Positions 5,601 through 27,891 of a DNA stretch of 38,511 nt are shown one piece after another; position 1 is the stretch's first letter; every line of letters starts with the position of its first letter. The position numbers were made by a program, and so were the translations under genes. The stretch is from assembly GCA_029259725.1 (NCBI GenBank), contig JAJDER010000150.1, forward strand, positions 1-38,511. The letters run 5' to 3'. The notes under the pieces are model-generated. The model did no database searches. It was not told the DNA's origin and saw nothing but the letters and a program-made list of their open reading frames with translations. This stretch comes from Planctomycetota bacterium. GTDB lineage: Bacteria > Planctomycetota > B15-G4.

Positions 5601-6015
5601 CGTGCACGACTTCCCGATCCCGTTCACCGCGATGGGGCGGCGCGCCCGGTCGAACGTGCCGGCGCAGGCGCTGGCCCTGCTCAACGATCCGTTCGTCGTG
5701 CAGGAGTCGCGCCGCTGGGCCGAGCGCTTGCTGGCCGAGGGGCCGGCGGGCACCGACGCGCGCCTCGAGTGGCTCTACCGCGAGGCCTTCGCGCGCGGGC
5801 CGAGCGCGGCCGAGCGGGCGGCGGCGCGGACCTTCGTCGCGGACGTCGCGCCGGAGGACGTCGCGCCGGGTGCCGTCGCGCCGGGTGCCGTCGCGCCGGG
5901 TGCCGTCGCGCCGGGTGCCGTCGCGCCTGAGGGCGTCGCGCCGGGTGACATCGAGGCGTGGGCCGATCTGTGCCACGTGCTCCTCAACGTCAAGGAGTTC
6001 GTCTTCCTGCGATGA
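2629..6015 (+). CDS. PSCyt1/DUF1549/DUF1553 (PSD1) planctomycete cytochrome-type protein
   Basis: This is a large secreted protein of about 1128 aa. A hydrophobic segment at about residues 37-57 acts as a signal or anchor. A c-type heme motif CVACH (residues 81-85) follows, in the PSCyt1 context. Next come DUF1549 (PSCyt2), with a second CxxCH-type site in TVACARCHDHKFD, a beta-rich central insert, and C-terminal DUF1553 (PSD1) with typical segments such as NRVWHHLFGRGLV and RRNFLSALLLVHDFP. In Planctomycetota these proteins are almost always paired with a DUF1501 protein, as here; their biochemical role is still unresolved. The start is uncertain: TTG 2629 overlaps the leader stop, and GTG 2626 is the alternative. 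Tandem repeats sit near both ends. The stop overlaps the next ATG as ATGA. Confidence 0.9.
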   Translation: MTAKNPDGPGEGAAGGPAGGPAGCAAGRRGLRSPWRLLAGACLALLAPWWPAGASAARPGDDEAGLAFFENEVRPLLAEHCVACHGPEQQKSALRLDGRQAFLAGGARGAAVVPGDADGSLLLHAVSYLDPDLQMPPRGLLSETQRATLRAWVERGAPAPDAPLPPPVGDVFDLEQRARHWSFQPVTDPPVPAVSDAEWPRHPLDAFILSRLDDAELSPAADADRATLARRLSFDLRGLPPTPAEVDAFLADPADDATALAALADRWLASPRFGETWGRHWLDLQRYAESKGHEFDFTIANAWQYRDYVIRALNADVPFDQFVIEHVAGDLLAEPRRHPELGSDESVLGTGSWFLGEEVHSPVDTLLDQADRTANKVDVFGKAFLGLTVACARCHDHKFDAIRATDYAALSGFVVSSRYRQVRFETDRDNAAVGAGLAALSKLAGPGATREVAAAMRRAFGVPGGTSLAPELVDADREGGSLAADRRLSSWRAAPTTTTRWHPDHGALRQDGVAFLQGRPGDVLLGPADLTEAGEARERVIGVLDRPAAVADPVWRVLRPAPGTEPDPGAVSWDQPGRTLHTETFTLETGRVFALVRGGGHVYVAVDGHRMIHGPLHGAHARTFEPAEDGGWHWVEVDLTNDLGHRAHVEFTPGADGVLAVAEVVEAAEAPPSTGEPRTAWTDRLAAIAAVGAGPGADVGVPAVVSHEIAAVSVRVAAGPADEVDAIDAWVLDVWARSSDAPAQGGAQTAGLLLERKALAARIRPESHTAPALMDGSGIDEFLFVRGNTATPGAPTPRRFLEALGGHAGRWDARGSGRLELARRLVDPANPLTARVFVNRVWHHLFGRGLVPTVDDFGHMGEAPSHPALLDHLAVRFMREGWSVKRLLRELVTSRTYSLDSEASPRAVEIDPTNVLLQHHSVRRLPAEAVRDAVLAVSGTLDTTVGGPPVPLHLSEFQQGRGRPPSGSLDGEGRRTVYLSVRRNFLSALLLVHDFPIPFTAMGRRARSNVPAQALALLNDPFVVQESRRWAERLLAEGPAGTDARLEWLYREAFARGPSAAERAAARTFVADVAPEDVAPGAVAPGAVAPGAVAPGAVAPEGVAPGDIEAWADLCHVLLNVKEFVFLR
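2667..2714 (+). repeat. four 12-bp tandem units in the PSCyt N-terminus
   Basis: The unit TGCCGGCGGTCC occurs twice perfectly, then twice with changes. It encodes a Gly/Pro/Ala-rich stretch just before the signal-anchor segment, which may explain the long N-terminus. Confidence 0.7.
5845..5949 (+). repeat. seven 15-bp tandem units encoding VAPGA-type pentapeptides
   Basis: The unit GTCGCGCCGGGTGCC is perfect in copies 2-5 (5860-5919); copies 1, 6 and 7 vary in the last six bases. The protein reads VAPED, four VAPGA, VAPEG, VAPGD. It lies inside the C-terminal DUF1553 region, about 20 codons before the stop. The four identical copies suggest recent slippage, always in frame. Confidence 0.92.
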
Positions 6016-24980: not shown

Positions 24981-25003
24981 CCCGTGGCGGAACGCGGGGT
25001 CCG

Positions 25004-25048
25004 GATCCGGGCGCGCGATCCGGGCGCGGGATCCGGGCGCGGGATCCA
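25004..25048 (+). repeat. three 13-bp units, intergenic
   Basis: GATCCGGGCGCGG repeats three times (first copy one change) and decays into a fourth. It lies between the FG-GAP stop and the ABC importer promoter. Confidence 0.7.
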
Positions 25049-25068: not shown

Positions 25069-25185
25069 CGCCATCGAGTCCGGGGCGGGCGCCTCAGGCC
25101 GCGCACGGCGCACGGTCGATGACGCCTCGGGGTGCGAGCGGCGCCCGACCCGAAGCGAACCCTGGAACGTGAGACGAGAAGCGAG

Positions 25186-26256
25186 ATGAAGGCCAAGGTC
25201 GCGTTCGTCGCCCTGATCTGGACGCTGCTCCTCAGCGGGCTGCACTTCCACCTGAACGTCGGGTGGAGTGAGCTCGGTGACGAGATCCGCGTCCTGCTCG
25301 GGCAGCAGCGCAAGACCATGCTGGTCGGTTTCCTGCCCGTGACGTGACACCTCACCTGTCCCGTCACCAGTTGGGTGACCGAGCACGGCGAGGGTGGTTC
25401 CTTCTTCCGCAGCCAGAAGTTCACGGACTGGCCGACGGTGAAGGAGTCGCTCATCGCCCGCGAGATCGAGGCGGTCTTCATCCTGGCCCCGATGGCGATG
25501 CAGCTGCGCGCCGACGGCGTCCCGATCAAGGTCGTGTATCTCGGGCACCGCGACGGCACGGCGATCATGGTCGGCACCGACAGCGACATCCATGAGTTCG
25601 GCGACCTGCGCGGCAAGCGCATCGCGATCCCCAGCCGTTTCGCCAACCAGAACATCCTGATGCACAAGATGATGCGCGAGTGGGACATGCCCTTCGGCAG
25701 CATCGACCTGGTGGAGATGCCACCGCCCGACCATCCGTCCGCGCTGGCCGCCGGGGCCATCGACGGATACATCGTGGGCGAGCCCTTCGCGGCGCAATCC
25801 GAGGTCGACGGCTACGGGCGTGTGCTCTACCACACCAAGGACATCTGGCCCGAGTTCATCAGCTGCGTGCTGGTCGTGCGCGAGGAGCTGATCCGGGACA
25901 ACCCGTCCGTGGTCCAGGAGCTGGTGGACGGCATCGCCAGCTCGGGCAAGTGGCTGGACGAGGACATGGCCCATCGCATGGACGCGGCCGAGGTCGCCGG
26001 CAAGTACTACTACCGGCAGGACCCCGAGCTGCTCAAGTTCGTGCTCAGCAAGCCGCCCGACCGCGTGAAGTACACGCACCTCAAGCCGGCCAAGGACGAC
26101 TTCGACGAGATCATGGAGCTGGCCGTGGACATGGGCGTGCTGAAACAACGCATCGAGTTCGAGGAGTACGCCGACGACCGCTTCGCGCGGCCGCTGGACG
26201 AGCTCGGCCTGGACATGGACAAGCTCCCGGCGCCGCGCATCGGAGAAGGACGATGA
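25186..26256 (+). CDS. NrtA/SsuA-type ABC substrate-binding protein with in-frame TGA (candidate selenoprotein)
   Basis: This 356-aa product is given if TGA 25345-25347 is read through at codon 54. Residues 5-19 form a membrane anchor or signal. Before the TGA the frame reads MLVGFLPVT, and after it, without any frame change, HLTCPVTSWVTEHG and then a typical NMT1/THI5/NrtA fold. That fold includes IAREIEAVFILAPMAMQL, DLRGKRIAIPSRFANQN, MPPPDHPSALAAGAIDGYIVGEPF and KDIWPEFISCVLVV. The product would hold U54-H-L-T-C58. My recollection is that relatives have a Cys at position 54 (VTCHLTCPVT). A SECIS-like hairpin follows. The permease and ATPase are intact and coupled. Alternatives are a nonsense mutation, a sequencing error, or two split ORFs. 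The transported substrate is unknown. Confidence 0.72.
25345..25397 (+). promoter_or_regulatory. candidate bacterial SECIS element
   Basis: A perfect 6-bp stem, GTCACC (25363-25368) with GGTGAC (25374-25379), closes a 5-nt loop AGTTG. The loop begins 21 nt after the TGA and has G as its second base. Bacterial SECIS elements are described as short hairpins just after the UGA with a G among the first two loop bases, so this fits. A weaker lower stem pairs CACCTC (25348-25353) with GAG-GGTG (about 25390-25396) around one bulged base. Hairpins are common in GC-rich DNA, so the fit supports but does not prove the role. Confidence 0.55.
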
Positions 26257-26297
26257 GCGTGGCGGCGGACGCCGGACCCGAGGCGGACCGGTCGTGA
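26253..26297 (+). CDS. 14-codon coupling ORF between substrate-binding protein and permease
   Basis: ATG 26253 overlaps the substrate-binding stop as ATGA. The ORF reads MSVAADAGPEADRS, and its TGA overlaps the permease ATG 26297 as TGATG. Terminating ribosomes could pass through this mini-ORF to the permease. No peptide function is claimed; chance is possible. Confidence 0.35.
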   Translation: MSVAADAGPEADRS

Positions 26298-27121
26298 TGA
26301 CCTGGCCCTGGATCGCCATCGCCCTGGCGCTGGTCATCTGGCGCGCGTCGCGCGGGCTGGGCGCGCGCGCCCAGTCGGTGCTGCTTCCGACGGCGGTGGG
26401 CGTGCTCATCATCGCCGTGTGGCGCCTGCTGTGTCTGGTCCAGAACGAGCCGATCTTTCCCACGCCGGAAGAGACCTACGGGGGCATCCGCGAACTCGTC
26501 GTCGACAACACGCTGCGCGACTACGTCATCGCGAGCCTGTTCCGCGTGACCTGGGGTTTCTTCCTGGCCGCGCTGGTGGGCATCCCGCTGGGCCTCGTGG
26601 TGGGCTGGTCGCTGCGCGCGTACCGCGCGCTCAACCCGATCATCCAGGGGCTGCGGCCGATCTCGCCGATCGCCTGGATCCCGATCTCGATCCTCTGGTT
26701 CGGCGTGGGCGACCGCGCGGCGATCTACCTGATCTTCCTGGCCGCGTTCTTCCCGATCGTGGTCGGGACCATGGCCGCGGTGCGCAACATCTCGCTCGTC
26801 TACGTGCGCTCGGCGCGCAACTTCGGCGTCGAAGGCGTCGAGCTGTTCCGACGCGTCGTGCTGCCCGCGGCCATGCCGCAGATCATCACCAGCCTGCGGA
26901 TCGCACTGGGTGTGGCCTGGCTGGTGGTGGTGGCGGCCGAGATGATCGCGGTGGACTCGGGCCTCGGCTACCTGATCAACGACGCGCGCAACATGGGCCG
27001 CCGCTACGACCTGGTCGTGGCCGGCATGCTCGCCATCGGCGCCATCGGGATCCTGCTGGACCTGCTGATCCGGCGGCTGGAGCGCTTCGACGAGGTGCGC
27101 TGGGGCTACGCAGGACGATGA
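26297..27121 (+). CDS. ABC transporter permease (NrtB/SsuC/TauC type)
   Basis: This 274-aa inner-membrane protein has about six hydrophobic segments. The binding-protein-dependent permease (BPD) domain carries LRPISPIAWIPISILWFGVGDRAAIYLIFLAAFFPIV and the EAA-like loop ARNFGVEGVELFRRVVLPAAMPQIITSLRIALGVAW, which contacts the ATPase. ATG 26297 is preferred over GTG 26294 because it overlaps the mini-ORF stop. The stop overlaps the ATPase ATG as ATGA. It forms the translocation channel of the importer; the family includes nitrate, taurine, sulfonate and thiamine-precursor systems, so the substrate is undecided. Confidence 0.9.
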   Translation: MTWPWIAIALALVIWRASRGLGARAQSVLLPTAVGVLIIAVWRLLCLVQNEPIFPTPEETYGGIRELVVDNTLRDYVIASLFRVTWGFFLAALVGIPLGLVVGWSLRAYRALNPIIQGLRPISPIAWIPISILWFGVGDRAAIYLIFLAAFFPIVVGTMAAVRNISLVYVRSARNFGVEGVELFRRVVLPAAMPQIITSLRIALGVAWLVVVAAEMIAVDSGLGYLINDARNMGRRYDLVVAGMLAIGAIGILLDLLIRRLERFDEVRWGYAGR

Positions 27122-27891
27122 CGACGTCCAGCGAATCCGCGCGCCCGAAGGTGGTCATCTCCGGCGTGGACAAGTCCTTCGACACGCGGGCCGGACCCCT
27201 GGAGGTCCTGACCGACGTCAACCTGACCGTGCACGAAGGCGAGTTCGTCTGCCTCCTGGGCCCCAGTGGTTGCGGCAAGTCCACGCTGCTCAACATCGTC
27301 GGCGGCTTCGAACGGCCCACCTCGGGCACGGTGACCATCGAGGGCGAGGCGGTCACCGCGCCGGACAAGCGCCGCGTGTTCGTGTTCCAGGAGTACGGGA
27401 TCTTCCCGTGGGCGAGCGTGTGGGACAACGTCGCCCTGGGCCTGGGTGGCCAGCCCAGGGACAAGGTCATCGAGACCGTGCAGTACTACATCGATCTCGT
27501 CGGGCTGAGCGGCTTCGAGAAGACCTACCCGATGGAACTCTCAGGCGGCATGAAGCAACGCGTCGAGGTGGCGCGCGCGCTGGCCGTGGACCCCGACGTG
27601 ATCTACATGGACGAGCCCTTCGGCGCGCTGGACAGCCTCACGCGCCTGCAGATGCGGGCCGAGCTGATCAAGATCTGGAAGCAGGAGCAGAAGACGATCC
27701 TGTTCGTGACCCACGACGTCGACGAGTCGGTGCAGCTCGCCGATCGCGTCGTCGTGTTCAGCGAGCGGCCGGGGCGCATCAAGGAGGTGGTCGAGGTCGG
27801 ACTCGAGCATCCGCGCGACCTGGGCTCGCCCGAGTACGGCGTCGCGAAGAACCGGCTCTACGAGCTGCTGGGCGTGCTGCACACGATCTGA
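27118..27891 (+). CDS. ABC transporter ATP-binding protein (NrtD/SsuB/TauB type)
   Basis: This 257-aa ATPase has Walker A GPSGCGKS, Q-loop FQEYGIFPW, signature LSGGMKQR, Walker B VIYMDEPFGALD and switch His in TILFVTHDVDESVQLADRVVVFS. All elements needed for activity are present. It energises the importer formed with the preceding permease and the lipid-anchored or membrane-anchored binding protein. The presence of an intact ATPase argues against the operon being dead, and hence against the TGA in the binding protein being a plain null mutation. Confidence 0.93.
   Translation: MTTSSESARPKVVISGVDKSFDTRAGPLEVLTDVNLTVHEGEFVCLLGPSGCGKSTLLNIVGGFERPTSGTVTIEGEAVTAPDKRRVFVFQEYGIFPWASVWDNVALGLGGQPRDKVIETVQYYIDLVGLSGFEKTYPMELSGGMKQRVEVARALAVDPDVIYMDEPFGALDSLTRLQMRAELIKIWKQEQKTILFVTHDVDESVQLADRVVVFSERPGRIKEVVEVGLEHPRDLGSPEYGVAKNRLYELLGVLHTI

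Follow-up and report, generated by a model that had tools for sequence, protein, structure and literature searches.

The window, that is, the whole analysed stretch of 38,511 nucleotides (contig JAJDER010000150.1 of the Planctomycetota assembly GCA_029259725.1), carries a three-gene operon of a substrate-binding protein, a permease and an ATPase, as judged from open reading frames and Pfam matches. The features of the operon, all on the forward strand, are as follows.

25186..26256, + strand: predicted substrate-binding selenoprotein of NMT1_2 type, 356 aa with Sec54 (translation, Pfam, AF2)
25189..25260, + strand: N-terminal helix, residues 2-25 (helix in AF2 model)
25345..25347, + strand: in-frame TGA, codon 54, predicted to be Sec54 (homologues with TGA or Cys codon)
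25357..25359, + strand: Cys58 of the UHLTC motif (the same residue in all 64 aligned members)
25363..25379, + strand: SECIS-like hairpin, 6 bp stem GTCACC/GGTGAC, loop AGTTG (bSECIS model, co-variation)
25864..25866, + strand: Cys227, the family's third conserved Cys (invariant in 64 members)
26294..27121, + strand: ABC permease, BPD_transp_1 (Pfam; best NCBIfam match SaoP)
27118..27891, + strand: ABC ATPase (Pfam; best NCBIfam match SaoA)

A single frame runs from the ATG at 25186 to the TGA at 26254-26256, and translation finds one internal TGA in it, at 25345-25347, within the peptide GFLPVT-U-HLTCPVTSW. Under the standard code the open reading frame list holds only a GTG-initiated frame of 293 aa downstream of this TGA (25375-26256), and a gene finder using that code would thus be expected to begin the gene past the Sec codon, so that the N-terminal helix is missed. 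The first-pass annotation had proposed one gene split by nothing but the TGA, and this is confirmed: we regard both halves as one protein because the Pfam NMT1_2 match (110.7 bits, cut-off 24.7) spans residues 43-270 across codon 54, with C put for U, and because the upstream residues R42 and L50-T53 are invariant in 10 close homologues, including that of the window. Its statement that the permease and ATPase are intact and coupled also holds, as their frames are unbroken and overlap by 4 nt. Frame clusters, which merge overlapping frames, recover the binding protein and permease together in 81 of 81 loci and the ATPase in 77. Residues 2-25 probably serve as a membrane anchor or an uncleaved export signal, going by their composition. 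Upstream of the binding-protein gene, at 25003-25047, lie 3.5 tandem copies of the 13-bp repeat GGATCCGGGCGCG, with 93% matches; elsewhere in the window (5844-5947), about seven 15-bp repeats in a coding frame yield recurring APGAV units in the peptide, close to where a long ORF ends.

Across its six frames the window holds 51 TGAs, including 25345-25347, that lie between stretches of more than 50 and more than 200 open codons, and therefore sequence alone proves little. What argues for a real Sec codon is the conservation of codon 54 among homologues, beyond chance. A homologue search over 58 genomes, including the window's own, gave a match in 18, and the 10 close ones that were read (E 7.2e-78 or better) have TGA at codon 54 in nine cases and TGC in one. 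A wider scan of genome contigs yielded 226 relatives; in the best 80 of these, codon 54 is TGA in 41 and a Cys codon in 39, thus one or the other in all 80, with a possible lean to Cys from one of the two search patterns, which demanded a Cys codon at 54. Together, these 90 loci (10 close and the best 80 of 226) include two repeats and represent 88 distinct genes with that of the window, 48 with TGA and 40 with Cys. Among the cultured carriers, Planctomycetes bacterium Pla163 (L074) has the TGA. The Cys that the first-pass annotation expected at this position in relatives is borne out, and the proposed alignment at residue 54 finds Cys or TGA at every locus and nothing else. In a phylum sample of 392 genomes, 33 matches reached E 1e-20 or better, and 25 scored above 450 bits; of the latter, 19 contain one TGA, with codon 54 itself checked in nine of the 19, and the six without TGA all have Cys. 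A quick tree of the 88 proteins implies 12 switches between Sec and Cys, at least 11 of them forced by starred branches. By the taxa named in the records of the relatives read, Sec forms are confined to two phyla, Planctomycetota and Acidobacteriota, and Cys forms come from these two as well as from Verrucomicrobiota, Ignavibacteriota and Myxococcota. A search of plasmids returned 46 records, all below 60% identity, and the UHLTC/CHLTC motif was absent from the three that were read.

The hairpin in the window begins 15 nt past the TGA, with its loop beginning 21 nt past it, and passes a bSECIS model built on published constraints (PMC13188914, legend to Fig. 2) with a loop of 5 nt, a stem of 6 bp, a spacing of 21 nt and -7.9 kcal/mol. 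The window-type (SW) subtype, defined by the peptide TSW after the motif, comprises 42 of the 88 genes, 38 Sec and 4 Cys. The model is passed by 37 of these 38 Sec genes and two of the four Cys genes, by one of 10 Sec genes and two of 36 Cys genes of other subtypes, and by about 9% of control codons of the same genes (5-10% by group). Sec hairpins of the window type take the form GTCACC-AGTTG-GGTGAC or the flipped form GTGACC-AGTTG-GGTCAC, apart from one with GTGACC/GGCCAC and one with T for C. The third bases of codons 61 and 64 are complementary in all 38 window-type Sec genes (32 GTC/GTG, 5 GTG/GTC, 1 GTG/GCC) and mismatched in two of the four Cys genes, and the loop codon is AGT in 38/38 Sec genes versus AGC in 4/4 Cys genes. 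The hairpin arms change together in all four independent pairs on starred tree branches, which are too few for significance (p 0.125), as are the four independent Sec/Cys contrasts within the window subtype (p 0.125). Folding energy of 48 nt showed no gain over synonymous shuffles (mean z -0.51, 38 Sec genes), and an Rfam scan of 25150-25600 gave just one chance microRNA match. Nine TGA genes do not fit the model (L110, L112, L116, L118, L119, L121, L130, L131 and L134) and perhaps use another SECIS class; by eye, TGA genes outside the SW subtype could form hairpins that have a bulge or a longer loop.

The genome-wide search for sel genes that the first-pass annotation had called for was answered in part by the window's own MAG, which is 84% complete: SelB is found (334 bits when scored together with its neighbours, against a cut-off of 242; a 664 aa ORF in L153), SelA has no match, SelD has only matches below the cut-off, and no tRNA-Sec was found among the 150 of about 1000 candidates that were scored. 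Of ten Rfam tRNA-Sec matches in this MAG, ARAGORN types eight of the loci as Ser (4), Leu (2), Tyr and Gly, the ninth lies on a Thr tRNA in L042, and the tenth has 30.5 bits. SelA is present in the other 14 of the 15 genomes tested, including eight of eight TGA-bearing relatives, and a tRNA-Sec with anticodon TCA was found in nine of nine relatives, eight of them TGA-bearing. In three relatives selA lies beside the same neighbour gene, which we take to be RecJ-like, and this gene also gave no match in the window's MAG, in an empty search run without a positive control. The first-pass annotation had held that a genome lacking selAB or tRNA-Sec would refute the proposal, and on this MAG that objection applies by half. 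An assembly gap is the simplest and likelier reading of the missing selA, selC and selD, because the selA-adjacent gene of relatives is likewise not found in a MAG of 84% completeness. A broader SelA survey reached 49 genomes through 50 of the best 80 loci, chosen non-randomly: 17 of 19 further Sec genomes have matches (16 over the cut-off and one a fragment at a contig end), two have none, and the 30 Cys genomes, whose completeness is not given, divide into 16 with a match and 14 without.

Cys or TGA at codon 54 in 88 of 88 genes, the co-varying SECIS-like hairpin, and SelA and tRNA-Sec in relatives uphold the earlier proposal of a selenoprotein, and in our judgement Sec is almost certainly inserted at codon 54 (TGA 25345). 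Decoding as selenocysteine would proceed through SelB, tRNA-Sec and the hairpin at 25363-25379.

Among known systems, SaoX (NF040735), reportedly from Haft and Gwadz in 2023, is a Sec-containing ABC substrate-binding subunit, as is proposed for the window protein. It matches residues 84-328 with 62 bits, far from its cut-off of 300; its Sec motif is UxP versus UHLTC here, and the match begins past residue 54, leaving the Sec positions unaligned. The partner permease and ATPase have SaoP (183 bits, cut-off 295) and SaoA (250 bits, cut-off 360) as their best NCBIfam matches, both below cut-off. The view of the first-pass annotation that transport binding proteins are not among the bacterial selenoprotein families is out of date, since Table 1 of a 2026 review (PMC13188914) lists SaoX, SaoB and BtuF as Sec-containing binding proteins; its interpretation as a whole is partly supported. 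SaoB (NF040727) has the motif CUxxT rather than UHLTC and no profile match to the window protein at E 0.01 in NCBIfam; its Sec may bind metal or unknown substrates (PMC13188914). BtuF (cobalamin-binding, cd01144) has the motif CxxU and gave no match in the Pfam and NCBIfam scans. Because SaoX is below cut-off, SaoB is unmatched and no NMT1_2 binding protein with UHLTC appears among the 119 families of the review, as far as its accessible text goes (PMC13188914), we read the window protein as a putative Sec-containing binding protein distinct from SaoX and SaoB, a variant so far unlisted. The accessible parts of the literature searched, including PMC4807772, PMC9312934 and PMC12013277, likewise hold no such family, with the qualification that the Haft papers of 2023 and 2025 could hold one and that the planctomycete candidate table S9 of PMC4807772 could list that of the window; otherwise no earlier description was found.

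An AF2 model built from the window protein and 63 relatives has a mean pLDDT of 87, with residues 51-60 less sure (average 70), and places residue 54 in the loop that joins strand 44-49 to helix 57-67. This loop follows the first strand, and in the binding-protein fold it lines the ligand cleft. Invariant among the 64 aligned members are, among others, residue 54 (U/C), H55, C58, H121, E199 and C227. Both the closest solved sequence (5e-39) and the best fold match (TM 0.84 by target) are 3un6, an S. aureus ABC binding protein whose title gives zinc bound, which differs both at position 54 (His) and at 58 (Leu). Four more distant loci from three genera (L159-L162) have Asp at position 54, and the Ruminococcus albus homologue has His after the same T (LPIT), although the alignment places a gap before this His. 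Two other distant relatives, L163 and L164, have Cys at 54 without Cys58, and therefore Cys at 54 need not mean metal. Cys227 is matched by an aligned Cys in 3un6, as it is in L159-L164 and L170-L172, all of them distant relatives.

Taken together, we propose that the product is exported, is probably anchored in the membrane, and serves as the substrate-binding protein of an ABC importer encoded by three genes, an importer that we take to be of the NitT/TauT kind. Selenocysteine is expensive to make and occurs mostly in enzymes, and U, C, D and H are all metal-coordinating residues. Sec54 and Cys58, perhaps with Cys227 and conserved His, could form a soft, chalcogen-rich site, whose likeliest role would be catching a thiophilic cargo (a soft metal, an organometal, or a sulfur or selenium compound) and passing it to the permease; lineages that do not make Sec would use Cys to the same end. 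We consider this reading as a whole, a Sec54 importer binding protein that catches thiophilic cargo, reasonably likely, and give even chances to residue 54 being the cargo ligand; naming the cargo as a thiophilic metal or chalcogen compound is a guess. The ligand role is preferred because metal binding is common to every residue seen at 54 (U, C, D and H). The broader proposal is that these ABC-importer binding proteins make up a selenoprotein family outside the 119 of the review, distributed across Planctomycetota and Acidobacteriota and extending as Cys forms into Verrucomicrobiota, Ignavibacteriota and Myxococcota, and that selenium acts in it as a cargo-catching ligand for uptake of soft metals or chalcogens; it is offered tentatively, at a little under even odds. 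If so, the repeated Sec/Cys swaps at a ligand loop would make a natural test of what selenium contributes to transport, and knowing the cargo would reveal what soft element or compound is taken up by these bacteria.

Sec54 and Cys58 could instead form a redox pair, as the first-pass annotation considered, either in a binding protein switched by oxidants or in one whose substrate is bound covalently as a selenosulfide. This alternative is less likely. In its favour, U/C54 and C58 are both invariant in the 64 members, and most uncharacterised selenoproteins are expected to be redox proteins (PMC13188914, section 7). The U-to-C spacing of UHLTC equals that of the listed selenoprotein TsoA (LULAxC), the sole such motif noticed in the accessible part of the review's list; however, the TsoA model in NCBIfam is not matched by the window protein, and distant relatives have Asp or His at 54 without Cys58, which suits a ligand better than a redox pair.

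Less probable still is an importer for nitrate, sulfonate or a similar anion in which Sec or Cys at 54 replaces the usual residue with no special chemistry. The best broad family for the binding protein is SsuA_fam (TIGR01728), at 109.6 bits under a cut-off of 163.5, and SsuA, TauA, NrtA and CmpA share its fold at 14-17% identity in the fold search; the taurine model in NCBIfam is also below cut-off. Against such a role, position 54 is only ever Sec or Cys in the 88 genes despite repeated switching, a pattern indicative of chalcogen chemistry.

An importer for selenium itself, with Sec in its own binding protein, is a rather remote prospect. In its favour, PMC13188914 notes that prokaryotes have no identified uptake system that is both specific for Se and of high affinity, and many carriers have SelA; yet the 14 of 30 Cys-bearing genomes without a SelA match, their completeness not given, suggest that the cargo is useful without Sec synthesis. 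Finally, a pseudogene or sequencing error, with the TGA a true stop or a wrong base, might draw on the negative searches for selA and tRNA-Sec in the MAG of the window and on the many TGA-split frames of the window, but we reject it as barely credible given the recurrence of TGA at codon 54 in 48 of 88 distinct genes from many assemblies and the co-varying hairpin.

Gene neighbours were examined as clues to the cargo. Across 81 loci the permease and ATPase are the only general companions. Nine loci (L077, L088, L089, L090, L091, L094, L095, L096 and L098) have a common frame upstream on the other strand, identified as FeS/NrfD by scanning in L095 and L077, and a PhsA-like molybdoenzyme adjoins it in L095, the sole locus scanned for it. 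The Ruminococcus albus plasmid homologue (L171, 3920-8658) is lined up with genes for a permease and an ATPase and with cooS, a CO dehydrogenase gene. We treat these neighbours, and the formate dehydrogenase described next, as leads to the cargo rather than proof. Another frame, downstream of the transporter, is common to L068, L069, L072 and L075, and in L075, the only one scanned, it encodes formate dehydrogenase alpha. The L075 match starts at about profile position 130, as if truncated past the Sec codon of this enzyme, suggesting that a second selenoprotein, formate dehydrogenase, likely lies beside the transporter in these four loci.
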